Source: an uncultured Fodinibius sp.
GTDB lineage: Bacteria > Bacteroidota > Rhodothermia > Balneolales > Balneolaceae
Length of the DNA: 64,000 nt
Assembly (NCBI GenBank): GCA_913056235.1
Contig: CAJXMW010000001.1
Coordinates: 1,054,001-1,118,000, forward strand
Reading direction: 5' to 3'
The position numbers were made by a program, and so were the translations under genes. This document shows, one piece after another, positions 10,935-59,265 of the stretch (positions are counted from its first letter, which is position 1; the number at the start of each line of letters is the position of its first letter). The notes beneath the pieces are model-generated. The model searched no databases. It was given only the letters and a program-made list of their open reading frames with translations, and was not told the DNA's origin.

Positions 10935-11099
10935 CTTCTGATTTGCTTTTCTGATTGCTTGCTATATTTTGGAACAATCAAAATAAATTAAAATTGGCGC
11001 CGTACAACAGGTAATAGAATAGTTTAATATACACGGATGGTTGGGGATTGAGAAAAGTTGCTGCTGGCGGTGTTCATTATCTAAAACACCAACTTATTG

Positions 11100-38984: not shown

Positions 38985-39808
38985 TACGCTTGATTGACCA
39001 TTTCCATTTTCTTTGTAAGTAGCTGTTGGACATGCTTGATAGCTTTAGGAAAAACTTTCCGTAGATCAATTTCGCTAGTTTTGGGTAGTTCTTCACGTAA
39101 TGTATTCATAAAACCATTTTTGACTTCTGTAGCGACATTTATTTTCCGGATACCATTTTGGATAGCTTTTTCGATTTGCGAATCCGGTATGCCCGACCCT
39201 CCATGTAGTACTAGTGCAGCAGCCGTATTTTTCCGAATACGGTCTACCAACTTAGTATCTAAATTAGGTTCTTTGTCGTAAAAGCCGTGTGCAGAACCGA
39301 TGGCAATAGCTAGAGCATCTACTCCTGTTTTATCGACAAATTCTTGTGCCTCCTCAGGTTGGGTGAACGACGCATTTTCTTTTGACTGTCCTAGTTTGGC
39401 TATATATCCTAACTCAGCTTCTACATTAGCACCATAGGGTGCGGCAGTTTCAACTACTTCGCGAGTAATTTTACAGTTTTCTTCGAAAGGTTCTTCGCTT
39501 GCATCAATCATTACAGAGTCGTAGCCGGCATCTAATGCTCTTTTGATAAGATCAATGTCTTCTGCATGGTCCAAGTGCAACCAAGCTTGTACATCGTACT
39601 GTTGAATAGCTGTTTTGGCTAAATTAGCAGTGACATCCAGCCCTAAATAATCAATTGTATTTTTAGTAGACTGCAAAATGACGGCTGATTCCGTAGCTTT
39701 TGCAGCACTAAGGATTGCAGAAAGAGTCTCAAAATTATAAAAGTTGACAGCTAGAACAGCTTTATTTTGGTTGTCCAGTTCTTTGAAGTAATCTTGTAAA
39801 GATTTCAT
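38984..39808 (-). CDS. Class II tagatose/fructose-bisphosphate aldolase, catalytic subunit (KbaY/GatY type)
   Basis: 274-residue zinc aldolase that splits tagatose-1,6-bisphosphate into dihydroxyacetone phosphate and glyceraldehyde-3-phosphate. Ligand motifs are AWLHLDHAEDI, AIAIGSAHGFY and LVLHGGSGIPD; the last and NVATEVKNGF bind the phosphate. DSVMIDASEEPFEEN is also characteristic. Enzymes of the KbaY/GatY type need a KbaZ/GatZ partner, which is encoded 15 kb away on the plus strand at 54.9 kb. Position beside agaS and under an AgaR-like regulator supports the amino-sugar role. Confidence 0.9.
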   Translation of the reverse strand: MKSLQDYFKELDNQNKAVLAVNFYNFETLSAILSAAKATESAVILQSTKNTIDYLGLDVTANLAKTAIQQYDVQAWLHLDHAEDIDLIKRALDAGYDSVMIDASEEPFEENCKITREVVETAAPYGANVEAELGYIAKLGQSKENASFTQPEEAQEFVDKTGVDALAIAIGSAHGFYDKEPNLDTKLVDRIRKNTAAALVLHGGSGIPDSQIEKAIQNGIRKINVATEVKNGFMNTLREELPKTSEIDLRKVFPKAIKHVQQLLTKKMEMVNQA

Positions 39809-42289: not shown

Positions 42290-45200
42290 ATGAAAAGGAT
42301 AAAAAAAGTAAGTAGGAGCTTAGCAAGCATACGGTTAGCAATCGGGATGGTACTGTGTCTTTTTATAATTAGTGGATTGACCAACTCAGTAAATGGTCAA
42401 GGAAATGAAGTGAGGGTCACGGGAACCGTTACTGATAGTCTGGCTGGACAAACATTGATTGGTGTCAATGTTGTGGTAAAAGGTACAAACTCAGGAACAG
42501 TCACAAATGGGGATGGTGAGTTCGCACTGACAGTACCCAATAGAAATTCGGTGCTTGTGTTTTCTTATGTGGGATACAAGTCTAAGGAAGTAACTGTTGG
42601 AGACAAAAGGGATTTAAATATTCAGCTTACGAAAGATGTAGGTAGTCTGTCTGAGGTTGTAGTTGTTGGATATGGAACAAAACGAAGGGCGGATGTAACA
42701 TCTTCAATATCTTCTGTTTCCTCGGATGAAATTGCAGAACAGACTGCAACTAATCTGAATCAAGCGATGCAGGGCCGAATTTCTGGAGTAAATATTACTC
42801 AGAATAGTGGTGCACCTGGAGCAGGTATTTCGGTTGATGTTAGAGGAATTGGTACTATTGGTAATAGTAGTCCATTATATGTAATCGATGGGATTCCAGG
42901 AGGGGATATTAACTCTATAAACCCACAAAACATTGAATCAATTGAAATTCTGAAAGATGCATCTGCAGCTGCTATATATGGTGCAAATGGTGCAAACGGT
43001 GTTGTATTAGTTACTACTAAAGGAGGTAGTAGTGGCGAAACAATGGTGAATTTTGATATGACATATGGTATCCAGGAGTTATCTAATAAGGTAGACATGT
43101 TAAATGCAGAGCAATATGCTCGAATGCAGAATGAAGCGCGATCAGCATCTGGGTTACAAACTTATTGGGATAATCCATCATCATTAGGATCTGGTACTGA
43201 TTGGCAAGATGCTTTATCAAGAAATGCAGGAGTTCAAAAATATAACTTATCAGTATCTGGTGGTAATGAGAAGCTGCAGTATTTTATATCAGGTGGCCAT
43301 TATGATCAAGAAGGGGTTTTAATTGGTAGCGGTTACAATCGGTCTACCATCAGGGTAAATGCTGATTATAGGGTTTCTGATTTTTTCAAAATTGGTAATA
43401 AAATTTCATTAGCCCGTACCAATCAGGCTTCGATACCAGAAGATTATCCATTTGCTAGTGATAATCGTATTGTTGGGGCACTGGAAATGTCGCCAACAGT
43501 ACCTGTTTATAGGGATGGAACATTTGCTGGTCCGCAGGGAGATTTCGAAGGAAGTAGTCAAGGGCCTAATCCGGTTGGAATGGCAACTATTAATGATGTT
43601 GATGATGAGTCTTCTAATGTTTCAAACCGGGCATATATTGAGGTTAATCCTCTCAATAATCTTACTATCAGGTCTGAATTTGGTATAGATTACACCGACG
43701 GTAATTATTACGAATTTCAACCTACATATAGATGGGGTATTACTTCTAACGCAATTGCACAGCTTTACAGGGGAAGCAGTAACAGTTTTGGTTGGACTAG
43801 CCAAACAACTGTTAACTATTTAGATACCTTTGGTGAATATCATGATGTAGAGTTACTGGGTGGTTTTTCCATTAATGAATCTCGATATGAGTCTATTGAT
43901 GCATCTGCCCAAGGTTTTATTAATGAGGATGTAACGGTCTTGAGTGCAGCTGATCAGATAAATAGCCTATCTGAATATGCGGAAGAACAATCAATGATTG
44001 GTTATTTTGGACGTGTAAATTACTCATACAAAAACAAATATCTGTTTACAGGTAATGTACGAGTTGATGGATCTTCTAAGTTTGGAGAAGGGCATCGATA
44101 TGGTACTTTCCCTTCTTTTTCACTGGGATGGAGAGCTTCTGAAGAAGAGTTTTTATCAGATGTTGGTTTCCTAAGCAATTTGAAGTTTCGATTTAGCTGG
44201 GGGAAGTCAGGCAACTCGCAGATCGGTAATTATAATTATGCGACTCGTTTGAACTTGTCACAATATTATGTGCTTGGTGGGGGTATAGTCCCAGGAGTAG
44301 CTCCAACGAGTGTTCCCAACGAGGAGGTAAAGTGGGAAACAACTACACAAACAAATGTAGGGGTAGATATCGGACTGTTTGAAGATAAGGTCAACTTATC
44401 GGCTGACTATTATGTAAAAACTACTTCCGATATGTTGGTGCCTGTCCCGATTCCAAGTAGTGCAGGAATTACCGAAGCACCCTATCAGAATGCTGGTAAG
44501 GTGGAAAACAAAGGCTTCGAGTTATCACTTAAATATCAAGATTCTGTTGGAGACCTTTCTTACAATGTTGGAGGTAATTTCTCTACTGCGAAAAATAAAG
44601 TACTGTCTCTTGGAGGCGGTCTCCCCATTTCATCTCCCATTTTATATCGAGAATCTGTTCGTTTGACGAGAACACAAAAAGGGCGCTCTATTGGTGAGTT
44701 TTATGGTTACAAGACAAATGGTCTGTTTCAGAATCAGCAGGACATTAGTAATCATGCTACTCAACCAGGAGCGGAACCCGGTGATATTCGGTTTGTTGAT
44801 GTTAATGACGATGGGGTAATAAATGATGACGATCGAACATACATTGGAAGTCCGATTCCCGATTTCCAATATGGGTTTAATGCTGGTGTCTCCTACAAAA
44901 ACTTTGACCTGAAGTTGTTGATAAGTGGAGTCTACGGCAATGAACTTATGAACACTGTGGGTTATCGCTTGCTCAATGGTTCTCATGTTGGGAATAAAAT
45001 GGCTGGTGTTTTAGATCGATGGACAGGTGAAGGCACAAGCAATAGTATGCCTCGTCTTACTTGGAATGATCCGAACAATAATGCCCGTATTTCAGATCGA
45101 TATGTTGAGGACGGATCTTATTTACGACTTAAAAATGTTCAGATTGGTTATAATCTGCCCAATTCGTTGTTAAATAAGTTTGGAGCAAGGAAAGTCAGAG

Positions 45201-45358
45201 TTTACGTAAGCGGACGTAACTTATTTACTATCACTGATTACAATGGTTTTGACCCAGAGTTAGGTAAGGTCGACAATAATAATCTTAACTACGGTATTGA
45301 CATGGGTAACTATCCAGTACCTCGAACATTTAATGTTGGGTTAAATATTGGGTTTTAA
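42290..45358 (+). CDS. SusC/RagA-family TonB-linked outer-membrane glycan importer
   Basis: 1022 residues. Signal peptide to about residue 37. CarboxypepD_reg domain about 42-120 (VTGTVTDSLAGQTLIGVNVVV, VLVFSYVGYKSKEV). SusC plug signature: VVVVGYGTKRRADVTSSIS at about 125, then GRISGVNIT and the diagnostic IEILKDASAAAIYGANGANG. The barrel runs to the C-terminal FNVGLNIGF. It imports oligosaccharides captured with the SusD-like lipoprotein encoded 42 bases downstream, using TonB energy. It is the first gene of the plus-strand arm. Confidence 0.97.
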   Translation: MKRIKKVSRSLASIRLAIGMVLCLFIISGLTNSVNGQGNEVRVTGTVTDSLAGQTLIGVNVVVKGTNSGTVTNGDGEFALTVPNRNSVLVFSYVGYKSKEVTVGDKRDLNIQLTKDVGSLSEVVVVGYGTKRRADVTSSISSVSSDEIAEQTATNLNQAMQGRISGVNITQNSGAPGAGISVDVRGIGTIGNSSPLYVIDGIPGGDINSINPQNIESIEILKDASAAAIYGANGANGVVLVTTKGGSSGETMVNFDMTYGIQELSNKVDMLNAEQYARMQNEARSASGLQTYWDNPSSLGSGTDWQDALSRNAGVQKYNLSVSGGNEKLQYFISGGHYDQEGVLIGSGYNRSTIRVNADYRVSDFFKIGNKISLARTNQASIPEDYPFASDNRIVGALEMSPTVPVYRDGTFAGPQGDFEGSSQGPNPVGMATINDVDDESSNVSNRAYIEVNPLNNLTIRSEFGIDYTDGNYYEFQPTYRWGITSNAIAQLYRGSSNSFGWTSQTTVNYLDTFGEYHDVELLGGFSINESRYESIDASAQGFINEDVTVLSAADQINSLSEYAEEQSMIGYFGRVNYSYKNKYLFTGNVRVDGSSKFGEGHRYGTFPSFSLGWRASEEEFLSDVGFLSNLKFRFSWGKSGNSQIGNYNYATRLNLSQYYVLGGGIVPGVAPTSVPNEEVKWETTTQTNVGVDIGLFEDKVNLSADYYVKTTSDMLVPVPIPSSAGITEAPYQNAGKVENKGFELSLKYQDSVGDLSYNVGGNFSTAKNKVLSLGGGLPISSPILYRESVRLTRTQKGRSIGEFYGYKTNGLFQNQQDISNHATQPGAEPGDIRFVDVNDDGVINDDDRTYIGSPIPDFQYGFNAGVSYKNFDLKLLISGVYGNELMNTVGYRLLNGSHVGNKMAGVLDRWTGEGTSNSMPRLTWNDPNNNARISDRYVEDGSYLRLKNVQIGYNLPNSLLNKFGARKVRVYVSGRNLFTITDYNGFDPELGKVDNNNLNYGIDMGNYPVPRTFNVGLNIGF

Positions 45359-45400
45359 ATAATGAAGTCTCCTAGTTATAAATTTAAAAAGTCAAAAGTT

Positions 45401-46879
45401 ATGAAGTTTATTAAAGGATTAACATTGCTAGCTCTCGTTTTAATTGCCGGGTGTAGTGATGAGATATTGACAAAGAATTCTCCTAATGAGGTAACGGCAG
45501 CTAACTTTTACAAAAATTCAGACGATGCCGTAGCAGCAGTAAATGCAGCTTATGATCCGCTCCAATATGGCGGCCTATTCAAGAACAGTTATTGGTCCAT
45601 TGGAGATATTGCTTCTGATGATGCTTATAAGGGTGATGGGGGTAAGTCTGATGGACCTGCTTGGTGGGAGTTCGACCTGTTTGATATAAATTCTACAAAC
45701 TCCCTATTAGCTGATAGTTGGGCAGACAGTTATACCGGTATCTATAGGGCAAATATCGCTTTGAAAGAGATACCGAATATTGATATGGATAGTAATCTAC
45801 AAGGTAGATTAATAGGAGAAGCAAAATTCTTACGAGGATTCTATTACTTTTGGTTAGTAAGATTGTTTGGTGATGTGCCTTTAATAACAAAGCCACAAAA
45901 ATTAGGAGATCTAAAAGTCCAACGTACTGCCAAAAGTGAAGTCTACAATCAAATCATAAAGGATATGAGTGAGGCGGCATCAGCTTTGCCAGAGACATAT
46001 GCGGGTTCTAACCAAGGCCGTATTACGAAGGGGGCAGCCAACGCGATGCTTGCTAAAGTGTATATGTGGCAAAAAAATTGGGACAAAGCAGCAGAATACT
46101 CCAAAAAGGTAATTGACTCAGGGGTATATGAATTGCTGGATAGCTATGCTGATAACTTTAAAGAAGAATATGAAAATAGTAAGGAGTCAGTATTTGAAGT
46201 TCAGTTTATGAAAGGTGGCCCAAATGGAGCTTGGGGTAATGCTAGTGATGGAACAATACAACACATTAGTATAGCTCCGAGAAATTCCGGTGTTGCAGGT
46301 CTCGAAGGTTGGGGTTTTGATATGCCTACCCAAGATTTGGTTGATGAATTTGAAAGTGGTGATCCTAGACTAGAGACTACGGTGCTAATGCAGGGCTCTA
46401 CTATCCAAGGAGGTAAGCAATATGATCCTGCTTGGTCATCAACAGGATATAATACACGAAAGTATCTCATTAAAAGAGATGGATTTATCGGTTCAGGAAG
46501 TGATTCACCGGTAAATTATCGTGTAATGCGATATTCCGAGGTACTTCTGAATTATGCAGAGGCTCTCAATGAAATGGGTGAAACCTCAAAAGCAAAACAA
46601 TACGTCGATCAGGTTAGAGAAAGGGTTGGGCTAAATGAATTGCAAGCAGGTTTGAGCCAATCAGAGTTCCGTGAAGCAGTTTATCACGAGCGTCGTGTTG
46701 AACTAGCTCTTGAAGGACACCGTTGGTGGGACTTGGTGAGAACTGGTCGTGCCCTGGAAGTAATGCAAGATCAACCTAATGGACATGGAGGCCAGATTCA
46801 GGAACACAACTTAATCTTTCCTATCCCACAATCTGAGATCGATGTTAATCCAGATTTATCTCAAAATCCAGGTTATTAA
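45401..46879 (+). CDS. SusD/RagB-family surface glycan-binding lipoprotein
   Basis: 492 residues from ATG 45401, which begins the lipoprotein signal MKFIKGLTLLALVLIAGC (lipid Cys18); an in-frame ATG at 45362 gives a charged leader and is less likely. SusD features: NEVTAANFYKNSDDAVAAVNAAYDPL, the TPR-like helices with EAKFLRGFYYFWLVRLFGDVPL, and the C-terminal YSEVLLNYAEALNEMG with HERRVELALEGHRWWDLVRTGRA. It forms the lid of the SusC importer. A strong hairpin lies between it and the downstream enzyme genes. Confidence 0.97.
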   Translation: MKFIKGLTLLALVLIAGCSDEILTKNSPNEVTAANFYKNSDDAVAAVNAAYDPLQYGGLFKNSYWSIGDIASDDAYKGDGGKSDGPAWWEFDLFDINSTNSLLADSWADSYTGIYRANIALKEIPNIDMDSNLQGRLIGEAKFLRGFYYFWLVRLFGDVPLITKPQKLGDLKVQRTAKSEVYNQIIKDMSEAASALPETYAGSNQGRITKGAANAMLAKVYMWQKNWDKAAEYSKKVIDSGVYELLDSYADNFKEEYENSKESVFEVQFMKGGPNGAWGNASDGTIQHISIAPRNSGVAGLEGWGFDMPTQDLVDEFESGDPRLETTVLMQGSTIQGGKQYDPAWSSTGYNTRKYLIKRDGFIGSGSDSPVNYRVMRYSEVLLNYAEALNEMGETSKAKQYVDQVRERVGLNELQAGLSQSEFREAVYHERRVELALEGHRWWDLVRTGRALEVMQDQPNGHGGQIQEHNLIFPIPQSEIDVNPDLSQNPGY

Positions 46880-46970: not shown

Positions 46971-47948
46971 GTGTCGAATCGAATGCAGCAAGGAAAATCG
47001 GATGTACTTGTCGTAGGGGAGTTAAACGTTGATTTAATTCTCAATGAGATTGATGGATTCCCGGAAATTGGGAAAGAGAAACTTGCAAACAGTCTTACAA
47101 ACACATTGGGTAGCTCTTCGGCAATATTTGCTAGTAATTTATCCAGTCTTGGCCCGCAGGTAAGTTTTCTAGGTAAGATTGGGGAGGACTCATTTGGTCA
47201 GAAAGTACTTAGATCATTGGATCAGATGAATGTTGATACGAATTTTGTAATTCAAGATCCAAAATTAACAACGGGGGTAACAGTAGCGTTAAATTATGGT
47301 AATGAACGTGCTATGGTTACTCATCAAGGTGCGATGAAGCACCTTGAGATTGACGATATAACTGATACTCATTTAAAAGAAGCCAAACACCTACACTTCT
47401 CTTCATTTTTTTTACAACCAAATATTGCAAAAGATCTCCATATTCTAATGGAAAGAGCAAAAAATATGGGGTTAACGACATCCTTTGATCCGCAGTGGGA
47501 TCCTAGCGAAAAGTGGGAAATTCAGTTAGATAAGATATTGCCCCATGTAGATGTATTCCTTCCGAATGAAGCTGAGTTAAAGTCATTAGCAGGCTTAACT
47601 GATTGGAAATCTGCACTAAAGGAAATTAGCGAGATGGCTAATGTGGTAGTTGCTAAGCTGGGGGCTAACGGATCTGCTTTCTGTAAGGATGGGGAGGTTA
47701 AAATGGTAGAACCATTTGAAAATAATCATATAGTCGACGCGATTGGTGCGGGTGATAGTTTCAATGCAGGTTTCATAAGTAGGTTTATATTGGGAGATTC
47801 AGTTGAGGAATGCGCAAGATTCGGAAATTTGGCAGGGGCACTTTCTACCACAGGTTCTGGAGGAACTGAAGCATTTTTGAATAGAGAAAGAATGATAAAA
47901 TTGGCAATGGAAGAGTTCGGTTTAAATAGAGAAGAATTAGCATTATGA
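46971..47948 (+). CDS. PfkB-family sugar kinase
   Basis: 325 residues from GTG 46971 (ATG 46983 is equally possible). Ribokinase-like fold: VVGELNVDLIL near the N-terminus, GSSSAIFASNLSSLG as the sugar-binding glycine region, FLPNEAEL at 196-203, and the catalytic signature DAIGAGDSFNAGF (GAGDSF at 259-264, base Asp262). In this locus it would phosphorylate GalNAc or galactosamine, or tagatose-6-phosphate, the two kinase steps of the Aga pathway. It overlaps the next gene by four bases (ATGA), which shows coupling. Confidence 0.92.
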   Translation: MSNRMQQGKSDVLVVGELNVDLILNEIDGFPEIGKEKLANSLTNTLGSSSAIFASNLSSLGPQVSFLGKIGEDSFGQKVLRSLDQMNVDTNFVIQDPKLTTGVTVALNYGNERAMVTHQGAMKHLEIDDITDTHLKEAKHLHFSSFFLQPNIAKDLHILMERAKNMGLTTSFDPQWDPSEKWEIQLDKILPHVDVFLPNEAELKSLAGLTDWKSALKEISEMANVVVAKLGANGSAFCKDGEVKMVEPFENNHIVDAIGAGDSFNAGFISRFILGDSVEECARFGNLAGALSTTGSGGTEAFLNRERMIKLAMEEFGLNREELAL

Positions 47949-49033
47949 AAAAAATCAGTTTTTTTATTTCGGTTTTCATTCTTTTGAATGGAATTTGTTT
48001 GGCACAAGATTCTTCTGGAGATCCACCAGCAGAGTCCTTATTGCTAAAAAATTATCGGCCCGAATCTTTATATAAAGTTCATGATTACAAGGCTGATAAG
48101 CCAAAGTTTTCAACCATTGATATGCATTCTCATGCTTACCCTCAATCAGAAACGGATATTAAAGCATGGGTTGAGACGATGAAGAAGAATGATATTGATA
48201 AAACAATACTGCTTACCAAAGCTACCGGTGCTAAGTACGACTCACTGTACTCAGTTTATTCTCAGTATGGAAATTACTTTGAAGTATGGTGTGGCATTGA
48301 TTATTCGGGATATAAACAACCAGGATTTGCAGAAAAGGCTATACAAGAGCTTGAGCGATTGCATAAAATGGGTGCAACAGGAATTGGAGAATTAGGTGAT
48401 AAAGGCGAAGGATTGGTTTATTCGCATCCTAAGCAAGCTTTAGGTATGCATATCGATGACAAAAGGTTGGCTCCCGTACTGGAACGGGCAGGTGAATTAA
48501 ATATGCCCATTAATGTTCATGTAGCTGAACCCTATTGGTTTTATATGGACATGGATTCTACCAATGATGGATTAATGAACGCAGTAAATTGGCGACTTGA
48601 TAATAAAGAAGGAATTCTTGGCCACAGTGCAATGCTTAAAACCTTAGAAAATGCGGTCAAGAAGCATCCCAATACAACATTTATTGCTGCCCATCTGGGG
48701 AATAGTTCATATGATTTAAAGATTATTGGCAGTATGCTTGAGAAGTATCCAAACCTCTATGCTGATGTTTCAGCACGATATGCTGAATTATCACAAATTC
48801 CTCGCCATGTCAAAGAGTTTATTACAGAACACCAGGATAAGATTGTTTATGGAACAGATATGGGTACTGGAGGCAGTATGTATGACGTAACATTCAGAGT
48901 ATTAGAAACGATGGATGAGCATTTCTACCGGCATGAGATGTTTGGATATCACTGGAGCTTAAATGGCTTTAACCTTAATGACAAGGTGTTGAAGAAGATT
49001 TATCAAAGTAATGCAAAGAAAATAATTAATTAA
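47945..49033 (+). CDS. Exported amidohydrolase-superfamily protein
   Basis: 362 residues with a signal peptide (MKKISFFISVFILLNGICLAQ), thus periplasmic. It is a paralogue of the cytoplasmic protein at 38.0-39.0 kb: both have a DxHxH start (STIDMHSHAYPQSE), a middle His (INVHVAEPYWF), FIAAHLGNSS, the KYPNLYADVSAR pattern, IVYGTDMGTGG with the catalytic Asp, and a C-terminus LKKIYQSNA. The catalytic ligands appear complete. The substrate is unknown; deacylation or ring opening of a released sugar are options. It overlaps the kinase gene and ends one base before the GH36 gene. Confidence 0.82.
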   Translation: MKKISFFISVFILLNGICLAQDSSGDPPAESLLLKNYRPESLYKVHDYKADKPKFSTIDMHSHAYPQSETDIKAWVETMKKNDIDKTILLTKATGAKYDSLYSVYSQYGNYFEVWCGIDYSGYKQPGFAEKAIQELERLHKMGATGIGELGDKGEGLVYSHPKQALGMHIDDKRLAPVLERAGELNMPINVHVAEPYWFYMDMDSTNDGLMNAVNWRLDNKEGILGHSAMLKTLENAVKKHPNTTFIAAHLGNSSYDLKIIGSMLEKYPNLYADVSARYAELSQIPRHVKEFITEHQDKIVYGTDMGTGGSMYDVTFRVLETMDEHFYRHEMFGYHWSLNGFNLNDKVLKKIYQSNAKKIIN

Positions 49034-49034
49034 T

Positions 49035-51125
49035 ATGAAAACGCCACTAGTGGACATGCGTCTTTTAATAGCAATCACTGTAATATTTTGTTTTTCCAGC
49101 TGTGTAAATAAACAGCAACCTCAGATTACAAGTGGTAAGGTTACCTTAACGTTTGATGAGCTGTTGCATACTAAGGTCGATTTCGAAGACGCTAAAAAAG
49201 CGTTGCTTTTGGATGGGTATCAGCCTTCAGAAACGATAACTATAAATGGTGAGGTCTTGCGTGACTTTGAGCTCAAAGATTACCGTTTGACATCAATTAG
49301 TAATGATTTAGGAACTGGCAACCGTCTTATCGTAACTGGTAACACAACTAATCCGAAGTACAAAATACAGAAAAAAGTTATAGCGACAGCATATGACAGT
49401 ATTCCAAACCTGATAACCACCCGTGTAGAGTATGTAAATAACGGAGGACAAGTTCTGACCTTAGGGGGCTGGAAAAACAATCAATATGTCTTACAACCTT
49501 TGGATAAGTCCTTGTCAGAAAAAAGTTTCTGGTCGTTTCAAAGTGCTTCCTATCCATCGCGTAAAGACTGGGTATTACCTGTCGGGCAGAATTTTGAGCA
49601 ACAAAATTACCAAGGAATGAATGCCACTGATTATGGAGGTGGTACTCCCGTTGTTGATCTATGGAGGTCAGATGCTGGCTTGGCAGTGGGGCATGTAGAA
49701 ACAGAACCCCAGCTTATTTCTTTGCCTGTAAAAACAACTTCCAAAAATAAGGGAATCAAATTATCGGTTTCTTTTGCTACTGATAGTGTTTCGACGTTAA
49801 AATATCCCCACTCGATACAGCCGAAAGATAGTGTATCTACTTTTGAAACTTTTCTTACTTCCCATAAAGGTGATTACTATACATCAATCAGGAAATATAG
49901 AAAGGTCCTCGATTCGAAGGGGATTGAGTTTGCAGAACCAACAGAAACGGCCTACGAGCCCATTTGGTGTGCTTGGGGTTATGGCCGTGACTTTACCCTT
50001 GATAAGGTTATAAATACTCTCCCAAAGGTTAAGGAACTTGGCTTCGAATGGGCAGTATTGGACGATGGATGGCAAATTGCTGAAGGAGATTGGCAAACGA
50101 ATGCCAAGTTTAACAAGACTACCATGAAGCAATTTGTGGATGAGGTACATGAATATGATTTGAAAGCAAAGTTGTGGTGGGCACCCTTGGCAGCAGATCC
50201 AGGATCCAGAGTTCATGAAAATGAATCGAATATGCTCTTAATCAATAAACAAGGGAATTACCAAAAAATAACCTGGTGGGATAGTCACTATCTGAATCCA
50301 GCCCTGAAAACAACAAAAGAATACCACAAACAGCTTGTTCAAAAGTTTATGGAAGAATGGGGTTATGATGGCCTCAAAATTGATGGTCAACATTTAAACC
50401 AGGTACCGCCCGATTATAGTCACAGCGAAGCACAAAAATATCCCGAGGAGTCTGTTGAAGAGTTGCCTGACTTTTACAAAGAAATTTATAAAACGGCTAA
50501 AAATATAAAATCTGACGCTGTGGTAGAGATTTGTCCCTGTGGCACCTCTGGTTCTTCGTTTATTATGCCCTACATGAACCAGCCGGTTTCATCCGATCCG
50601 CTGGATTCATGGCAAATACGACACAAAGGGAAAACATATAAAGCCTTGATGGGAGAGAGTGCGGCATATTACGGTGATCATGTCGAGTTGAGTGATGATC
50701 AGAGTGATTTCGCTTCTACAGTGGGTATAGGAGGAGTTATTGGGTCTAAATTTACCTGGCCAAAGTCAGCAGATCCAGATAATGAGTTTTTGTTGACGGA
50801 CGAAAAAGAAGCCCTTATCAAAAAATGGATGGGTATTTATAAAAATTATATGCTTCCCAAGGGGGAGTATAGAGGTGAGCTATATGATATTGGGTTTGAC
50901 CGTCCAGAAGCTCATGCCATTGAGAGAAATGGAAAGCTTTTCTATGCATTTTATGCGGATTCTTTTGAGGGGAAGGTAGAACTGCGCGGCCTAAAAGCAG
51001 ATACCAGTTATGAACTTGCTAATTACGAAACAGGCAAGCAGATGGGTACTGTTGAAGGATCAGGTGCAAGCCTGGAAACGAGTTTTTCTGATCATCTGAT
51101 GATAGTGGCGAAACCACAAGAATGA
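49035..51125 (+). CDS. GH36-type alpha-galactosidase/alpha-N-acetylgalactosaminidase lipoprotein
   Basis: 696 residues with a lipoprotein signal (FCFSSC, Cys23). The N-terminal beta domain (30-290) is followed by the barrel: CAWGYGRDF, VLDDGWQIAEGDW (342-353), AKLWWAPL, and the nucleophile motif DGLKIDGQH with Asp450. The probable acid/base is Asp521 in SSDPLDSWQIRH. EICPCGTSGSSF sits between them. The family hydrolyses alpha-galactosides, and some members alpha-GalNAc or raffinose-type sugars. In a locus with agaS and GH109, alpha-GalNAc or alpha-Gal ends are likely. It begins one base after the exported amidohydrolase gene. Confidence 0.88.
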   Translation: MKTPLVDMRLLIAITVIFCFSSCVNKQQPQITSGKVTLTFDELLHTKVDFEDAKKALLLDGYQPSETITINGEVLRDFELKDYRLTSISNDLGTGNRLIVTGNTTNPKYKIQKKVIATAYDSIPNLITTRVEYVNNGGQVLTLGGWKNNQYVLQPLDKSLSEKSFWSFQSASYPSRKDWVLPVGQNFEQQNYQGMNATDYGGGTPVVDLWRSDAGLAVGHVETEPQLISLPVKTTSKNKGIKLSVSFATDSVSTLKYPHSIQPKDSVSTFETFLTSHKGDYYTSIRKYRKVLDSKGIEFAEPTETAYEPIWCAWGYGRDFTLDKVINTLPKVKELGFEWAVLDDGWQIAEGDWQTNAKFNKTTMKQFVDEVHEYDLKAKLWWAPLAADPGSRVHENESNMLLINKQGNYQKITWWDSHYLNPALKTTKEYHKQLVQKFMEEWGYDGLKIDGQHLNQVPPDYSHSEAQKYPEESVEELPDFYKEIYKTAKNIKSDAVVEICPCGTSGSSFIMPYMNQPVSSDPLDSWQIRHKGKTYKALMGESAAYYGDHVELSDDQSDFASTVGIGGVIGSKFTWPKSADPDNEFLLTDEKEALIKKWMGIYKNYMLPKGEYRGELYDIGFDRPEAHAIERNGKLFYAFYADSFEGKVELRGLKADTSYELANYETGKQMGTVEGSGASLETSFSDHLMIVAKPQE

Positions 51126-51150: not shown

Positions 51151-52612
51151 ATGGACAGAAGGAGCTTTATCAAAAAAAGTTCGTTAGCTGGTATTGGTCT
51201 GTCAGCAATGCCTTTTGATATGATAGAAAAGAGCAATGGATCTACTTCAAATCCATCTACAAAAAAGAAGATTATCGTAGCCGGTGCGGGTATTGCGGGT
51301 TTATGTTGTGCATATGAGCTAAAGAGGATGGGGCATGAAGTTGAAGTACTGGAAGCTGCTGGTCGATATGGGGGCACAGTGCAAACAGTACATGATGGAT
51401 TAGCAGGCGGATTGTATGCTGATTATGGAGCCGAAAACATAACAAAACCAGGATATGAGAACTATTGGAAATATATTGAAGAGTTTGATATTCCAGTTCT
51501 TCCATATTTGCACCGAAAAAATAGGATGACAAGAGAGGGCGATGAATGGCTTACAAAGGCAGATCTGCAAAAAAGACGTGAAAGACAACTTAAAAAACTA
51601 GGTGGACTTAACGAGAAAGAATCTCACTTTCTATCATCTCGTTCCTTTCAAAATTTACGAACAGATTTAGAACGACTCTATCTGGGGCCCTATCTTGAAA
51701 AATTTAACGATGAATATCAGCCTTTTGGAATCGGATATGACCATTTGGATGAAGTCCCGATTTCAGAGATTTATAAAAAAGAAGGAGCGTCTAAGGCTGC
51801 TCTCCAAGTGTTGGGTGGGGGTAATACCTCGGCACTCTATAAATTATGGCAATCTTATATCAAGAATAAAAGAGGGTATTGGGGAGAGTATGATCTTTAT
51901 CGAATTGAAGGGGGTAATGATATTTTACCTAAGGAATTTGCTGAGCGATTGGGTACAAGGGTAAAGCTGGGTTGTAAAATACTGGGTATAGAACATGGTG
52001 ATACTGGTGTTACCGTTCTGTATAGAGAGTTTGGAGAAGAGAAAAAAATGTCTGCTGATTATTTAGCTAATTGCCTGCCTGTATCCGCATTGCGAAATAT
52101 TGCTATTACCCCAGAACTACCTCCTGAAAAGAAATTTATTATCAATGAGATTACTTATGAGCAGAAGTCGAGAATTGTATTTCAGGCACGGACAGAGTTT
52201 TGGAAGAAAGATAACATCAGCATTAATCTAACCTTTAACCATCCTCACTTGCGCACTATTTGGCAGGTAGCCGAAGAAGTGGATACTCCCAGAGCTGTAT
52301 TGATGGCTAAGGCTTCTGCTGGCACGAATCCTCTCCGAGCGCTTGAAGTCTTCAAAGAGCATTATCCGGGTGATAGGTCGAATATCGACATAGAGCAGGC
52401 TTTGGTGAAAGATTGGTCTGCAGATCAGTTTACTCCTGGATGTGAAAGGGGAGGTTTTCCTATGGGGGGAGCTATCAAAATTTTGGCCCCACCTTATTAA
52501 GCCTCATGGAAGAATTTATTTTGCGGGTGGTTATGCCGACAACCGAAGTTGGGGTATGGAGGCTGCAACGAATTCAGCTAACCGGGTAGCCAGGGAAATA
52601 GATCAAGCCTAG
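51151..52612 (+). CDS. Tat-exported FAD amine-oxidase-like dehydrogenase, frameshifted near the C-terminus
   Basis: Begins with the twin-arginine leader MDRRSFIKKSSLAG, so it should be exported folded with its cofactor. FAD-binding GAGIAGLCCAYELKRMG (45-61) and EVEVLEAAGRYGGTV follow; the family covers flavin amine oxidases and related dehydrogenases. The frame stops at 52500, but continuing one frame over gives PHGRIYFAGGYADNRSWGME and EAATNSANRV up to TAG 52612, the expected C-terminal FAD motif. The break coincides with six G at 52464-52469; five G would restore the gene. It is either a sequencing or assembly error, a recent mutation, or a slippery phase-variable tract. The cytochrome c gene begins six bases after the restored stop. 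Confidence 0.85.
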
Positions 52613-52618
52613 TAGTAT

Positions 52619-53341
52619 ATGAAAACTCTGATAACAATGGTCATTTCCACTTTAGGGGTCATGTTTTTTTACCAGTATGAAATATCAAGTGGAAAGGGCG
52701 GAGCCAGTTTTAAAGTAGAACCTTCTGTAGAGCTATCGCTTGCTGATAACAATGAAACTGTTTCTTGGGGGGCGCAAGTACGATACGGGATTCAAGTTCG
52801 TAGTCCGGTCGATGGGAATTCAAGGTATGGAGAGATTGATCCCAAACAGGTATTTCTGAGTGTTAGTTTTTTTCCTAATGCTACTGATTCTTCCGATATA
52901 ACTCATCAAAAAGAGAAGACAAGGTTAGCAAACCAATCAGGTTTAACCTTAATGGGGCAGGGAAGTTGTTTTAGTTGCCATGCCGACGAGAACAGTATTT
53001 CAGGGCCTTCATTTACAGAAATTGCTAGTTCATACAGTAACGGAAAAAGAAATAAGCAAGACCTCATAAATAGTATTAGAAAAGGATCTGAAGGCGAATG
53101 GGGTAGCATGACAATGCCCGCCAATTCTGAATATTCTGAAGAAGAAGCTGCAAAAATGGTTGCGTATATCATAAGCCAAGGTTCATGCGAGCATTGTTGG
53201 GTGTATCCAGGTCTTGAAGGCGTTTTGAAGATTATTACAGCCCCGAAAAATATTGAGACAGGATTATATTTGTTAACAGCTAGTTATACCTCTTCAAATG
53301 AGGAGCGTGGGAAAGATACAATGGTATTAAAAGTAGAATAA
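52619..53341 (+). CDS. Exported c-type cytochrome with flanking beta domains
   Basis: 240 residues. An N-terminal hydrophobic segment (1-18) exports or anchors it. An immunoglobulin-like domain (about 30-95; YGIQVRSPVDGNSRYGEI) comes first. A single cytochrome c domain has the haem motif CFSCH (117-121) and a likely axial Met in GSMTMPANSE. After it lies CEHCW, a second CxxC that is not a haem site, and a beta domain to the end (GLYLLTASYTS). The position six bases behind the restored FAD dehydrogenase suggests it accepts that enzyme's electrons in the periplasm. Confidence 0.88.
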   Translation: MKTLITMVISTLGVMFFYQYEISSGKGGASFKVEPSVELSLADNNETVSWGAQVRYGIQVRSPVDGNSRYGEIDPKQVFLSVSFFPNATDSSDITHQKEKTRLANQSGLTLMGQGSCFSCHADENSISGPSFTEIASSYSNGKRNKQDLINSIRKGSEGEWGSMTMPANSEYSEEEAAKMVAYIISQGSCEHCWVYPGLEGVLKIITAPKNIETGLYLLTASYTSSNEERGKDTMVLKVE

Positions 53342-53353
53342 AGGGCCTTTTCT

Positions 53354-54868
53354 ATGGACAGAAAAAAATTTATCAAATCTGTAGGCATGACGGGACTAGC
53401 GTCTACTATGGGAATTCGAGGTTTCAGGGATCATACTTCTCAACCTGATTGTAATGGTCCGGAAATTGACGATCGTCTTTATCAAGGTCCTTTCCCTGTA
53501 GAAGTAGTACCGGGATGGGATGTGGTGATGACCACAGTGCCTTCTGATCGTGTTTTGGATAACTTTGGAATGGGACTGGTGACCTATGTTGTGGATGAAG
53601 CAGGCCCGCCATCCGTTGACGGGGAATCCTTATCACAGTCAATTGAAAAGTTAGCCAAGATACCTCTTGGACAAAAACTTTACCTGAGAGTTAATTGGAA
53701 AGATCTGCAGGACAAACCTGGTGAGTTAAATCCATCAAAAGAGTGGCAACTGGCTTTTGAGATGGCTGAGAAATATAACAAAAAGATAGCATTCCGGGTT
53801 ATGCTTAGTAATCCGGAAATACCCGGTATGGCTATTCCCGACTTTGTAGCAGAAAAAGTACCAAAGGTTAAACTGGGGACAACTGATCAGATCGGGTTGA
53901 AAGGAAAGGTACATTATGAGCCACGATACGATCACCCGGCTTTTCAGAAAGCATTTAGAGAATTTAATGAGCTAATGGCTTTGAAATATAACGGGCACCC
54001 CCAAATCGAATATATGGATACTTTTATGTATGGTTTTTGGGGCGAAGGTCATACTTGGCCATTTGAAGGCAATCCTTTTCCTGATTCCGTTGTTGCAGAG
54101 CAAACGTTTACCAAGATGTTTCAACATCAGCTGTCATGTTGGGACCATGTCCCTTTGACCACGAATACACAGCCTGATTTCAGCAATGTGGGCAATGATA
54201 CTATTCTAAGAGAGACACTCAGAACCAATAATTGGCTTCGTTCAGATACCATTTTTATTGAAAACCAGCAGATTGCAGCTCTCAGCAATCGCTCTCCCTG
54301 GATTGGAGCCACACTGGAAGTGGGTATGTCAGATGGAAAACAGCAAAATATTCAGCTGTCTGATGGCCAAACTCATACCGATAATGAGATCCATCATGTT
54401 ATGGATGTCGGAGCTAACTATTATTCACTTTGGAATTGGCAGGCCATAGCCGCTGATAAAATACTCAGATACTATGAAAAGTATCCCGATACCATCGATA
54501 CTATAGCTAGGAAAGTTGGGTACAGGATTCGCCCTTCCTGGGTCTGGAGTTTTGAAAGAAAAGGACATCCTGGCCTAATTTTTGGTCTCGTTAATGATGG
54601 AATATCGGGTATACCGGGTAGTTTGAAATTAACATTAAAGACTGAAAAAGGTGAAGTGTTAGAGAGTGGGTATGTAGATCCGGGCTACCCCAATCCAAGT
54701 GGTGTCAGGCAAGTCAGAATGATGTTGCCCAGAGGTATGAGCTGGAAGGGATTACGACTATATGCCGAGATTAACGTGAAGGGCCAACTGTATCCTGTGG
54801 AGTGGGCTACAAGAGTGGAACCCAACAAAGATGGCAGTTTAACACTAAGTCCTACTCCACATGTATGA
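53354..54868 (+). CDS. Exported protein of glycosidase-like build, family not recognised
   Basis: 504 residues with a Tat-like leader (MDRKKFIKSVGMTGLAS, an RK variant). The middle (about 70-380) reads like a TIM barrel of beta-galactosidase type: GQKLYLRVNWKDLQ, KKIAFRVMLSNPE, YMDTFMYGFWGEGHTWPFEG and IEYMDTFM, with conserved acidic and aromatic residues. The C-terminal 130 residues are a beta-sandwich (HPGLIFGLVNDGISGIPGSLK). Candidate catalytic acids are the Asp of EYMDTF and the Glu of GFWGEGH. It could be a DUF4832-like or GH42-related enzyme; the assignment is open. It starts 12 bases after the cytochrome gene. Confidence 0.65.
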   Translation: MDRKKFIKSVGMTGLASTMGIRGFRDHTSQPDCNGPEIDDRLYQGPFPVEVVPGWDVVMTTVPSDRVLDNFGMGLVTYVVDEAGPPSVDGESLSQSIEKLAKIPLGQKLYLRVNWKDLQDKPGELNPSKEWQLAFEMAEKYNKKIAFRVMLSNPEIPGMAIPDFVAEKVPKVKLGTTDQIGLKGKVHYEPRYDHPAFQKAFREFNELMALKYNGHPQIEYMDTFMYGFWGEGHTWPFEGNPFPDSVVAEQTFTKMFQHQLSCWDHVPLTTNTQPDFSNVGNDTILRETLRTNNWLRSDTIFIENQQIAALSNRSPWIGATLEVGMSDGKQQNIQLSDGQTHTDNEIHHVMDVGANYYSLWNWQAIAADKILRYYEKYPDTIDTIARKVGYRIRPSWVWSFERKGHPGLIFGLVNDGISGIPGSLKLTLKTEKGEVLESGYVDPGYPNPSGVRQVRMMLPRGMSWKGLRLYAEINVKGQLYPVEWATRVEPNKDGSLTLSPTPHV

Positions 54869-54924: not shown

Positions 54925-56235
54925 ATGAAAAATTATCTTCTAGATTTAGTACGTCATAAGCACCGTGAGTCTTCAATCGGGATTTATTCCGTTTGTTCGT
55001 CAAATAGCTATGTCCTTAAAGCTTCTTTATTACAGGCGAAGGAGGATAATAGTTTCCTACTTATCGAACCTACAGTGAATCAGGTTAATCAGTATGGAGG
55101 TTATACTGGACGTACGCCTGCGGATTTTGTTGACTTTATATCACATTTGAGTGACGATGTGGGGTTCCCTGAGGATAAACTGATTCTAGGTGGGGATCAT
55201 CTGGGCCCCAATCCTTGGAAGGGAGAGCCTGCTGCTCAAGCAATGGAGAAATCAAAAGAATTAATTCGTTCCTACGTCGAAGCTGGATTTAAGAAAATTC
55301 ATCTGGATACAAGTATGCCCTGTGCCGATGATGATGTTGATCTAGGTGTGCCCATGAAAGATGAGATTGTAGCTAGCCGTGCAGCGGAATTATGCAAAGT
55401 TGCGGAAGAGACTTACGAAAAAAAAGTATCAGATTCTGTACAACCTGTTTATGTAATAGGAACGGAAGTGCCAATTCCAGGAGGGGCCGAGGGGTCAATA
55501 CATGATATTCAGGTTACGAGTGTTGATTCAGCAAAGGCAACTATTGAAATAACTAAGAGAGCATTTCAGGAAAAGGGACTTGAAGATGCGTGGGATCGTG
55601 TTATTGCTCAAGTTGTACAACCAGGAGTAGAGTTCGGGAATAGTGACATTGTAGAATATGATCCCCAAAAGGCGGTTGACCTTTCTTCTTTTATTAAAAA
55701 CCGTGATACAATGATATTTGAGGCCCATTCAACTGACTATCAGGCTGAAAATAATTTGAGAAAGCTGGTTACGGATGGTTTTGCAATTTTAAAGGTAGGA
55801 CCTTGGCTCACCTTTTCTTTTAGAGAAGCAATTTTTGCCTTATCACTTATCGAAAAGGAATTATTCTCTTCAACACCATCAGTAGAGTTATCAAATTTAC
55901 AAGAGGTATTGGATCAAGTAATGGTCAATAATCCCGAATCATGGAAGGATCATTATGATGGTGACGAAGAAAGGTTGAAATTTTTGCGAAAGTATAGCTA
56001 TAGCGATCGGTCAAGATATTATTGGTCGAATCCCGAAGTAAAACAGGCTGTAAAAAAGTTATTTGAAAATCTTGAAAAGCATGATATTCCTTTGCCTTTG
56101 TTGAGTCAGTTTTTACCGAATCAATATCGAGCAATTAAGCAGAGTGAATTAGAAAATGATCCCCGCCAAATTGTACTTCATAAGATTCAGAGGACAATAG
56201 ATGTATATTCTCATGCAACTAAACAGGCAGTCTAG
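54925..56235 (+). CDS. D-tagatose-bisphosphate aldolase non-catalytic subunit (KbaZ/GatZ/AgaZ)
   Basis: 436 residues. Needed for full activity and stability of the class II tagatose-bisphosphate aldolase. Family hallmarks: IGIYSVCSSNSYVLKASLLQA, LLIEPTVNQVNQYGGYTGRTP, ILGGDHLGPNPWKG, AGFKKIHLDTSMPCADD, VYVIGTEVPIPGGA, MIFEAHSTDYQ and LKVGPWLTFSFREAIFAL. It pairs with the KbaY-type subunit on the opposite strand at 39.0-39.8 kb, so the two halves of one enzyme are 15 kb apart and under different promoters. There is no signal peptide, although its neighbours are exported enzymes. Confidence 0.94.
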   Translation: MKNYLLDLVRHKHRESSIGIYSVCSSNSYVLKASLLQAKEDNSFLLIEPTVNQVNQYGGYTGRTPADFVDFISHLSDDVGFPEDKLILGGDHLGPNPWKGEPAAQAMEKSKELIRSYVEAGFKKIHLDTSMPCADDDVDLGVPMKDEIVASRAAELCKVAEETYEKKVSDSVQPVYVIGTEVPIPGGAEGSIHDIQVTSVDSAKATIEITKRAFQEKGLEDAWDRVIAQVVQPGVEFGNSDIVEYDPQKAVDLSSFIKNRDTMIFEAHSTDYQAENNLRKLVTDGFAILKVGPWLTFSFREAIFALSLIEKELFSSTPSVELSNLQEVLDQVMVNNPESWKDHYDGDEERLKFLRKYSYSDRSRYYWSNPEVKQAVKKLFENLEKHDIPLPLLSQFLPNQYRAIKQSELENDPRQIVLHKIQRTIDVYSHATKQAV

Positions 56236-56314: not shown

Positions 56315-57649
56315 ATGGATAAAGAAATTAACCGAAAAGATTTTCTCAAAACATCTGCATTAACAGGATTGGGACTTTCTATAGCACCTTATTCGGTGTT
56401 AACTGGAAGTGATGACCGGACGGTTACGTTGGGATTTTTGGGAGTGGGTTCTCGAGGTACTAGCCATTTGGAAGGTATGCTGAATAGGGATGATGTTGTA
56501 GTAAAAGCTATTTTAGACCCTAAGACGGAAAATCTAAAACGAGCACTGGATATTGTAGAAAAGGCTGGACAAGATCGACCAGATGCATATTCAAGTGAGG
56601 AGGACTATATCAAGCTTTGCCAACGAGAAGATCTTGATGGCGTTATTATTTCGTCTCCGTGGGTATACCATAAGAGGCAAGCAGTAGCCGCTATGGAGAA
56701 TGGGAAGTATGCGGGGGTAGAAGTCCCGGCAGCTCTAACTGTAGAGGATTGCTGGGAACTAGTAGAAACCTCAGAACGCACGGGGATGCCTTGTATGATG
56801 CTGGAAAATGTTTGCTATAGACGTGATGTAATGGCGGTGTTGAACATGGTCCGCGATGGTATCTTTGGCGAAATGATACATGCAAGGTGCGGTTATCAGC
56901 ATTCGCTCACGCCATATTTGTTTAATGATGATCTCGAATTTGGTTCTGGTACAGGTAGTGTTTCTAGTTGGAGAACTGAACACTACATCAAGAGAAATGG
57001 GGATCACTATCCCACACACGGTGTTGGACCTGTAGCACATTGGTTGGATATAAACCGGGGAAACCGATTCGTAAAGTTAACTTCTAATGCTACGAAAGCA
57101 GAAGGACTGGAGAATCATATTGAGCATTATGGTGGGCAGAATCATCCAAACGAGGAGATAGACTGGAAGACAGGAGATATCGTAACGACGACTATCACAA
57201 CAGCTAATGACGAAACTATTTTAATAACGTTTGATACTACATTGCCTCGACCCTATTCATTGGGTTTCAGAGCACAGGGTACGAATGGACTTTGGCAGAT
57301 GGAAAGAGATGCTGTTCATGTTCGTGGGAGAAGTAATCAACATGAGTGGGAAGACTTTCAGAAATATCGTAAAGAGTTTGACGCTGAACTATGGAAGCGC
57401 CATGAGCATGAAGCAGAGGGGGCTGGACATGGGGGAATGGACTATTTTGTCAGAAATGCTTTCGTCGAATCAATCAAGAATAAAATGCCAACTCCACAAG
57501 ATGTATATGATGCTGCAACATGGAGTGTGATAGCTCCTTTATCAGAGGAATCAATTGCCAAAGGCGGTACACCAGTTGATTTTCCTGATTTTACGAGTGG
57601 TAAGTGGATGGAGAATGAACAGATATTCGATCCCAACGGAAAATTTTAA
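56315..57649 (+). CDS. GH109-type alpha-N-acetylgalactosaminidase (Gfo/Idh/MocA fold)
   Basis: 444 residues with a Tat-type leader (NRKDFLKTSALTG, RK variant). GH109 enzymes cleave terminal alpha-GalNAc through a transient NAD-dependent oxidation. NAD site: FLGVGSRGTSHLEGM (41-55). Family signatures: VIISSPWVYHKRQAVAAM, KYAGVEVPAALTVEDCWELV, PCMMLENVCYRRDVMAVLNM, GDHYPTHGVGPVAHWLDINR (catalytic His/Tyr region) and LPRPYSLGFRAQGTNGLW. These stretches match what I know of the founding alpha-N-acetylgalactosaminidase. This gene is the strongest evidence that the locus targets alpha-GalNAc glycans. Confidence 0.92.
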   Translation: MDKEINRKDFLKTSALTGLGLSIAPYSVLTGSDDRTVTLGFLGVGSRGTSHLEGMLNRDDVVVKAILDPKTENLKRALDIVEKAGQDRPDAYSSEEDYIKLCQREDLDGVIISSPWVYHKRQAVAAMENGKYAGVEVPAALTVEDCWELVETSERTGMPCMMLENVCYRRDVMAVLNMVRDGIFGEMIHARCGYQHSLTPYLFNDDLEFGSGTGSVSSWRTEHYIKRNGDHYPTHGVGPVAHWLDINRGNRFVKLTSNATKAEGLENHIEHYGGQNHPNEEIDWKTGDIVTTTITTANDETILITFDTTLPRPYSLGFRAQGTNGLWQMERDAVHVRGRSNQHEWEDFQKYRKEFDAELWKRHEHEAEGAGHGGMDYFVRNAFVESIKNKMPTPQDVYDAATWSVIAPLSEESIAKGGTPVDFPDFTSGKWMENEQIFDPNGKF

Positions 57650-57669: not shown

Positions 57670-59265
57670 GTGATTAGAACAATTGTAAGAGTGTTTCTTA
57701 TTTGTCTGATTCTCAGTGGCTCTTTTGTAGGGGTTCAAGCTCAGGATACCCTCACATTAGAAATAGAAAAGGATGAATATTGGTGGGGAGGTGTAAGTTC
57801 AGATAGTCATTTAATGCCATATTCCTCTTCTACCTCACTTGAACGCGATTTGTTGGGAAATAACTATGGAAATCAAGCGCAACCTCTGCTGGTATCTAAT
57901 CATGGTAGGTATATTTGGTCGGAAAAACCTATAGCTTACCGTTTCGATGAAGGGTCTATTATGGTTACAAGTAAGTATGGGGAAATAAAGGCTGGTCAGC
58001 AGAAATCTAGTCTTCGAAAGGCGTTTCAGTATAGTATAAGACATTTTTTCCCGCCCCAGGGTCAGTCGCCCGAAGAACTTATGTTTACTGCCCCACAATA
58101 CAATACGTGGATTGAGTTAATGTATGATCAAAACCAGAAGGACGTCTTGGAATATGCCCGTAGTATTATTGATCAGGGATACCCACCCGGCGTAATTATG
58201 ATTGATGATAATTGGCAGGAAGATTATGGTGTTTGGGAGTTTTCTAAAGAGCGCTTTCCGAACCCTCAAAAAATGATGGATGAACTCCACAGCATGGGTT
58301 TTAAAGTGATGTTGTGGGTAGTTCCATTGGTTAGTCCAGACTCTCGGGTCTATCGCAATTTAGCTGAAAAAGATATGTTGCTGAAAAATAAAGATAAGGA
58401 ACCGGCAATGATTCGATGGTGGAATGGCGTCAGTGCTTCTTTAGACCTGAGTAACCCCGATACCCGGTCATGGTTTAAAAATAAGCTTGATTATCTAGTT
58501 GATGAATATGGGGTTGATGGATTTAAATTTGATGGTGGAGATACCCACCATTACCAAGGCAAATTAATATCCCATAAACCTTCACTCCCTAATGACCACA
58601 CTCGCTTTTTTGCAGAAATCGGGTTGGATTATCCGTTAAATGAATATCGTGCGTCATGGAAGATGGGTGGGTATCCATTAGCACAACGCTTGAGAGATAA
58701 AAGTCATAGTTGGGAAGATATGAGGAAGTTAATTCCTGGTATTATAGCTCAGGGTCTGATGGGATACGCATTTACCTGTCCTGATATGATTGGAGGTGGA
58801 GAATTTACTTCTTTCCTAGATGAGTCAAAAATTGATGAAGAACTAATTGTCCGTTCGGCTCAAGTACATGCTCTGATGCCCATGATGCAATTTTCGGTTG
58901 CTCCCTGGAGAGTTTTATCCAAAGAGAATCAACAGCGGGTAAAACGAATGGCGACCCTTCATGCCCAAATGGGGGATACCATTTTAGCATTGGCAGAGAA
59001 GTCTGCACAAACTGGTGAGCCTATTGTGCGTCCAATGGCTTATACCTATCCCAATCAAGGTTATGCTACAATTAACGATCAATTTATGTTAGGCTCACAG
59101 ATAATGGTTGCTCCTGTAGTTCGAAAGGGACAACGAGAAAGAACAATCGTCATTCCCCAAGGTACTTGGGAAGCAGAAAATGGGAATACATATCATGGAC
59201 CGACCACAGTTAAAATCGATGTACCTTTAGGACGATTACCTTTGTTTAAAAAAGTAGAGTCTTAA
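57670..59265 (+). CDS. GH31-family alpha-glycosidase (MYORG/alpha-galactosidase-like)
   Basis: 531 residues from GTG 57670, which starts a signal peptide (cleavage near VQAQD). The GH31 barrel has GVIMIDDNWQEDYG, FKVMLWVVPLVSPDS, the nucleophile motif YGVDGFKFDGGD (Asp288) and the later SHSWEDMRKLIPG with the likely acid/base Asp just before it. It is shorter than classic alpha-glucosidases and resembles the MYORG-like branch. GH31 also contains alpha-galactosidases and alpha-N-acetylgalactosaminidases, which fits the locus. It is the last enzyme of the plus arm, 20 bases after GH109. Confidence 0.88.
   Translation: MIRTIVRVFLICLILSGSFVGVQAQDTLTLEIEKDEYWWGGVSSDSHLMPYSSSTSLERDLLGNNYGNQAQPLLVSNHGRYIWSEKPIAYRFDEGSIMVTSKYGEIKAGQQKSSLRKAFQYSIRHFFPPQGQSPEELMFTAPQYNTWIELMYDQNQKDVLEYARSIIDQGYPPGVIMIDDNWQEDYGVWEFSKERFPNPQKMMDELHSMGFKVMLWVVPLVSPDSRVYRNLAEKDMLLKNKDKEPAMIRWWNGVSASLDLSNPDTRSWFKNKLDYLVDEYGVDGFKFDGGDTHHYQGKLISHKPSLPNDHTRFFAEIGLDYPLNEYRASWKMGGYPLAQRLRDKSHSWEDMRKLIPGIIAQGLMGYAFTCPDMIGGGEFTSFLDESKIDEELIVRSAQVHALMPMMQFSVAPWRVLSKENQQRVKRMATLHAQMGDTILALAEKSAQTGEPIVRPMAYTYPNQGYATINDQFMLGSQIMVAPVVRKGQRERTIVIPQGTWEAENGNTYHGPTTVKIDVPLGRLPLFKKVES

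Follow-up and report, generated by a model that had tools for sequence, protein, structure and literature searches.

A flavin amine oxidoreductase-family gene with a twin-arginine start and a cytochrome c gene form a conserved pair that is recurrent but optional in GH109/GalNAc-type loci

Gene content of the locus

The window, by which we mean the whole 64,000-nucleotide stretch analysed here, comes from an uncultured Fodinibius sp. (GCA_913056235.1, contig CAJXMW010000001.1, positions 1,054,001 to 1,118,000). It contains a gene coding for a flavoprotein of the flavin amine oxidoreductase (FAO) family (PF01593, E 1.2e-30), followed by a gene coding for a cytochrome c (Table 1). As the first-pass annotation had proposed, the pair lies in a glycan locus: genes for SusC and SusD, a PfkB kinase, GH36/melibiase-like, GH31 and GH109 proteins, KbaZ, a SIS-domain protein and a class II aldolase surround it, and a DeoR-type regulator is also encoded there. 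Judging from this gene content, the locus would fit the use of GalNAc or galactosamine. Loci and genomes are referred to below by our own L and G numbers.

Table 1. Features of the FAO-cytochrome locus (positions within the window).
Feature	Position	Strand	Remarks
Second PF04909 amidohydrolase	37992-38984
Class II aldolase	38984-39808	-	KbaY-like by context
SIS-domain protein	39849-41006	-	AgaS-like by context
SusC-type receptor	42290-45358	+
SusD	45362-46879	+
PfkB sugar kinase	46971-47948	+
PF04909 amidohydrolase	47945-49033	+	recurrent FAO neighbour
GH36/melibiase-like hydrolase	49035-51125	+
FAO-family flavoprotein, main part	51151-52500	+	449 aa; PF01593; ends at premature stop
Twin-arginine start MDRRSFIKK	51151		identified by eye
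FAD motif GAGIAG	51283-51300
Conserved Cys-Glu	52441-52446
Frame break	52460-52500
Premature stop codon	52498-52500
FAO C-terminal part	52469-52612	+	another frame; conserved residues begin slightly downstream of 52469
Stop codon of downstream FAO frame	52610-52612
Exported monohaem cytochrome c	52619-53341	+	240 aa; signal segment; c551-type domain; CFSCH at 52967-52981
orf53354, conserved protein	53354-54868	+	Tat- or lipoprotein-like start (by eye); no Pfam family
Tagatose-bisphosphate aldolase non-catalytic subunit (GatZ/KbaZ/AgaZ)	54925-56235	+	TIGR02810 over cut-off
GH109	56315-57649	+
GH31 hydrolase	57670-59265	+

The flavoprotein gene begins with a twin-arginine start and carries the FAD motif, as annotated, and alignments of the FAO family, read by eye, likewise open with an R-R/K-x-F-type start. 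The FAD motif stands, but the enzyme as a whole is not intact: the frame opened at the twin-arginine start runs into a premature stop, and the rest of the protein lies in another frame. The six-base gap described before the cytochrome ATG is correct when counted from the stop of this downstream frame. Both parts form a single protein in the intact orthologue of L031 (Gracilimonas mengyeensis), with 71% identity over 447 aa for the main part and 85% over 47 aa for the C-terminal part, and relatives carry the frame intact. A search for repeats around the break returned none. The window FAO as written is therefore frame-broken, and either the pair has been lost in this genome or the sequence contains an error. 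Decay of the locus, in which the frameshift would mark loss of the FAO and the cytochrome would be left over, is a possibility that we take seriously without favouring it. In favour of such a loss are the premature stop and a search of 11 further genomes of the genus that gave no FAO match at E 1e-30, but both FAO parts are still conserved, the main part contains no further stop, the cytochrome gene is intact, and a small sequencing or assembly error would give the same picture. Elsewhere in the same genome, an open frame of 505 aa (L075, G000:C1:840778-842178) encodes a second, distant FAO-family protein (28% identity).

The exported CFSCH cytochrome of the first-pass annotation was confirmed, with PF13442 and PF00034 both over their cut-offs. 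In the structural model, residues 106-189 form a c551/c552-like core (Z 13.2, 2.1 Å over 82 residues). The flanks jointly match Ig- and macroglobulin-type sandwiches over residues 33-240, with 88-103 residues aligned at Z 8.2-9.1, slightly above the level that the tool calls common. Together with the strand order of the model, these matches suggest that the haem domain is inserted in a single Ig-like sandwich. The Ig-like flanks annotated earlier thus keep their Ig-like match, but would be better described as one sandwich that the haem domain splits. Across 18 sequences, the two Cys, the His and Met166 do not vary, and Met166 is presumably the axial haem ligand.

A matching gene order was found in G. 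mengyeensis (L031/L036: SusC, SusD, PfkB, amidohydrolase, GH36, FAO, cytochrome and orf53354, then GH31 and KbaZ) and in a second genome of the family (L032), which has the same order minus PfkB and with an extra gene before GH31. In L036 (G. mengyeensis DSM 21985), the intact FAO occupies 9001-10464 and the cytochrome 10486-11229. A search for GH109 in the G. mengyeensis genome gave no match. Homologues of the two PF04909 amidohydrolases of the window recur near FAO genes, including in loci without a GalNAc label. The protein encoded by orf53354 has 504 aa and is 73-74% identical in two relatives. At E 1e-60 it was found in 3 of 394 genomes, each of which has the FAO-cytochrome pair. A relaxed Pfam search of orf53354 and its neighbours assigned it to no family, and it possibly represents an undescribed glycosidase-like family. 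Within 20 kb of the orf53354 homologue of Chryseolinea serpens (L082) no FAO was found; the FAO of this species sits on a different contig.

Conservation of the pair and its link to GH109 loci

The cytochrome was searched in 394 drawn genomes at E 1e-10 or better, and 58 of them, the window's included, gave matches. Many of these matches are short cytochromes with just the haem core in common, or modules within large proteins. Nine of the 24 large frames carrying the module were scanned for domains (L006, L008, L010, L012, L014, L018, L020, L024 and L028), and all nine combine GSDH, PKD and cytochrome domains, with CBM6 over cut-off in five. The window cytochrome belongs to the same module family as the one fused to GSDH-type proteins in many surveyed genomes; the matches cover both of its flanks, yet it stands alone beside an FAO instead of within a large GSDH-domain protein. 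Since the same module sits behind GSDH and PKD domains in the large proteins, it may be an exchangeable electron-accepting part. Among the matches listed from open-licence PMC papers, we found no description of the GSDH-cytochrome architecture.

Besides the window's, the survey yielded five standalone cytochromes with flanks. An FAO lies directly upstream of four of them, and the fifth is truncated where its contig ends, in a genome that has an FAO at the end of another contig. Furthermore, scanning the collection of species genomes with an alignment of FAO sequences returned 34 loci. After removal of two cut loci (L041 and L068) and a fragment (L069), 31 had a full FAO and readable downstream sequence, and a cytochrome adjoined the FAO in 27 of these 31 (the exceptions being L048, L054, L064 and L066). 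The tally was then extended by the window, L032, L102 (from the genome that also holds L035) and, from the Maribacter orientalis family, a further ten genes, eight of which have the cytochrome. L073 and L099, identical to L041 and L056, were dropped, and L031/L036, L033/L040 and L035/L102, being the same loci, were counted once. In total, 38 of the 44 distinct FAO genes whose downstream sequence could be read have the cytochrome immediately downstream, and this adjacency spans Balneolota, Bacteroidota and Verrucomicrobiota. FAO and cytochrome are thus a conserved two-gene unit, as the proposal of an exported FAO-type enzyme going with its neighbour cytochrome had anticipated. Six FAO genes have no adjoining cytochrome, and the GH109 loci L098 and L105 account for two of the six. 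These exceptions could be read as accidental adjacency, the FAO being an ordinary oxidase and its neighbour a cytochrome that works for another system; given the 38 adjacent pairs in three phyla, we regard this reading as very improbable. The FAO family itself is patchy: at E 1e-30 it was matched in 5 of the 92 genomes in the window's family, and at E 1e-100 in 10 of the 397 in the Maribacter family.

Several individual loci depart from the usual arrangement. In L054 (9055-13667), the place of the usual cytochrome after the FAO is taken by a 1048-aa DUF7133-HEAT protein that has one haem motif. The FAO fragment of L069 (8914-9395), in Arenibacter echinorum, is apparently a remnant. The FAO genes without adjoining cytochrome in the GH109 loci occupy 9318-10781 in L098 and 9173-10642 in L105; the genome of the latter (G671) carries a second FAO, with cytochrome (L106), at a distance of about 34 kb on that contig.

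The tie to GalNAc loci implied by the first-pass annotation was upheld in part. By our own labels, 8 of the 45 rows of the FAO tree belong to GalNAc-type loci (the window, L036, L032, L038, L065, L098, L105 and L106), while the other 37 showed no GalNAc-type genes, meaning no homologue of the window's GalNAc-type proteins within the stretch compared. This comparison relied on BLAST against the proteins encoded in the window and reached about 20 kb at most, less on several short contigs, so that other sugar genes would escape notice. SusC/SusD homologues occur in six of the unlabelled loci (L054, L056, L066, L096, L100 and L101). With 37 of 45 rows unlabelled, the pair is not dedicated to GalNAc, and we rejected the idea of a GalNAc-specific device. 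We also discarded the expectation that about 60% identity to the Gracilimonas FAO would mark a GalNAc locus and about 50% would not. It failed both ways: the locus of the L097 FAO (60%) showed no GalNAc-type genes, and the FAOs of L098 (50%) and L105 (48%) lie in GH109 loci.

On the FAO tree, the GalNAc rows do not form one clade but require five label changes, a number as low being reached in 6 of 500 shuffles. In all, 43 GH109 genes were counted in twenty genomes. In the 14 FAO-bearing genomes used to assess proximity, 4 of the 17 FAO loci have a GH109 gene no more than 15 kb away, where 0.20 would be expected (p 3e-5), the limit of 15 kb having been set after the loci were seen, genome sizes being rounded and contig ends ignored. 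Thirteen of the genomes tested were drawn regardless of neighbourhood, to which G441, the draw's centre genome, was added. Because G441 had been reached via a locus known to be of GalNAc type, the test was repeated without it and gave 3 of 16 against 0.18 expected (p 7e-4). The proximity test indicates that the FAO is a recurrent but optional member of GH109/GalNAc-type loci. For GalNAc and GH109 loci, we found no account of this pair, or of an enzyme related to it, among the matches listed from open-licence PMC papers.

Fold and predicted flavin site of the FAO

By sequence, L-amino acid oxidases (LAAOs) rank first among the solved structures, at E 4.3e-22 from a single sequence and 4.5e-45 from the family profile; NicA2 was matched at 2.8e-4 from one family member and 1.3e-19 from the profile. 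The Gracilimonas orthologue was modelled with a mean pLDDT of 84, and Foldseek also ranked an LAAO best (E 1.2e-29). With VIA-align, monoamine oxidase (MAO) A (2bxr; Z 33.6, 3.5 Å, 418 residues) and LAAO (5ts5; Z 33.3, 3.3 Å, 430 residues) were tied, and NicA2 scored Z 30. NCBIfam models for protoporphyrinogen oxidases and carotenoid desaturases reached 25-39 bits, below their curated cut-offs, among the matches listed (25 of 52 families), and a carotenoid- or protoporphyrin-type oxidase was accordingly rejected. The FAO is nearer to LAAOs and MAO than to these enzymes and the pair co-occurs in other genomes, so neither of the two outcomes named in advance against the first-pass reading was found.

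A Cys kept in 45 of 45 FAO rows falls, with no gap around it, on the residue that in MAO carries 8alpha-S-cysteinyl FAD, both in MAO A (1o5w) and in a bacterial MAO (8p84). The following residue is Glu in all 45 rows and Tyr in both MAO structures. Monoamine oxidase has an aromatic cage of two Tyr-type residues, and it is the first of these that Glu replaces in the FAO rows. The position of the second cage Tyr aligns with Gly against 1o5w and with a gap against 8p84, and a Trp stands one residue before it in all but three of the aligned FAO rows, which leaves this half of the cage comparison unsure. Glu where MAO has Tyr indicates a pocket unlike the one in a typical amine oxidase. In the aligned LAAOs an Arg presumably binds the substrate carboxylate; in the FAO family this Arg is replaced by Asn in the window's relatives and mostly by His elsewhere (Asn, His, Gly or Leu across the 45 rows). 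Taken together, the MAO-aligned Cys, the adjacent Glu and the replaced Arg lead us to predict a covalent FAD, probably attached through the conserved Cys in the manner of monoamine oxidase, and a polar pocket.

Several features thus separate the family from its nearest solved relatives. Like MAO A and B it has the FAO fold and the aligned Cys, but it carries a Tat-like signal for export, has a cytochrome partner and bears Glu for Tyr after the Cys. Despite being closest to LAAOs by sequence and Foldseek, it lacks their Arg, goes with a cytochrome and has a Cys with no counterpart in the aligned LAAOs; L-amino acid oxidase was therefore rejected as a family label. An L-amino acid dehydrogenase, exported and LAAO-like with the cytochrome in place of O2, would agree with the ranking of the solved relatives, but because of the replaced Arg and the additional Cys we consider it quite improbable.

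A candidate two-protein dehydrogenase

The main text of Akram et al. (2025; PMC12224317) reports stopped-flow kinetics which show that, where an FAO bears a Tat signal and is encoded next to a cytochrome c, it is in many cases a dehydrogenase that uses the cytochrome. The present family shows both of these gene-level features. The same text reports that clade 1 pairs reacted modestly with their own cytochromes, with weaker transfer, so that adjacency alone is no proof of fast transfer. The window pair resembles NicA2/Pnao-CycN and the other FAO/cytochrome c dehydrogenases of that paper in its FAO fold, its Tat-signal flavoprotein, and the two-gene unit completed by a neighbouring class I cytochrome c that is exported and monohaem. 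It differs from the NicA2 type in being remote in sequence, as shown by the E values above, in its conserved MAO-type Cys, in a cytochrome of the GSDH-linked module family that is apparently inserted in an Ig-like domain, and in its hosts (Bacteroidota, Balneolota and Verrucomicrobiota) and GH109 loci. The strings 'bacteroid', 'flavobacter' and 'covalent' have 0 occurrences in the main text of PMC12224317, a version with some species names missing and to which the 2911-sequence tree and the supplement are external.

By analogy with these enzymes, as far as the main text describes them, the pair would work in the same way, and we consider it likely that FAO and cytochrome form an exported two-protein dehydrogenase whose electrons pass from the FAO to the cytochrome and then to the respiratory chain. 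The folded FAO would cross the inner membrane via Tat and oxidise its substrate by hydride transfer to FAD; the neighbouring cytochrome c would re-oxidise the reduced flavin in one-electron steps and hand the electrons to the respiratory chain. The window's own genome encodes TatC and four haem-copper oxidases over cut-off, making a route to oxygen possible.

The likeliest substrate is an amine, which in GalNAc loci would perhaps be an amino sugar or be set free from the glycan, since this fits both the superfamily and the loci. Alternatively, the FAO could oxidise a sugar C-OH group of an aldose or glycoside and pass the electrons to the cytochrome, with the lactone opened by neighbouring amidohydrolases or metallo-lactamase-fold proteins. 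The invariant Glu beside the flavin Cys, the fusion of the cytochrome module to GSDH proteins in all nine scanned cases, the PF04909 homologues near FAO in unlabelled loci (L037, L051, L066 and L096), the lactamase-fold proteins in L038 and L096, and the enrichment of FAO near GH109 are all consistent with sugar oxidation. However, the loci counted above as free of GalNAc-type genes, by comparison with the window's proteins, argue against it, and a PDB sequence search with both window amidohydrolases returned nothing up to E 0.1, so that a lactonase role for them is a guess. Moreover, the superfamily is described in the main text of PMC12224317 as acting on C-N bonds, and we think oxidation of a sugar C-OH unlikely. 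Equally doubtful is a broader conjecture, in which an FAO-fold lineage with covalent FAD would have left amine chemistry for periplasmic sugar or amino-sugar dehydrogenation via the GSDH-shared cytochrome, repeatedly joining GH109/GalNAc loci as an energy-yielding oxidative step.

With a two-protein dehydrogenase of the proposed kind, the FAO/cytochrome c dehydrogenases would gain a family from Bacteroidota, Balneolota and Verrucomicrobiota whose cytochrome is built differently and whose FAD is predicted to be covalently bound. The pair also suggests that some GalNAc-type loci include a respiratory oxidation, a step that does not figure in the usual GalNAc scheme of transport, hydrolysis, kinase and aldolase.
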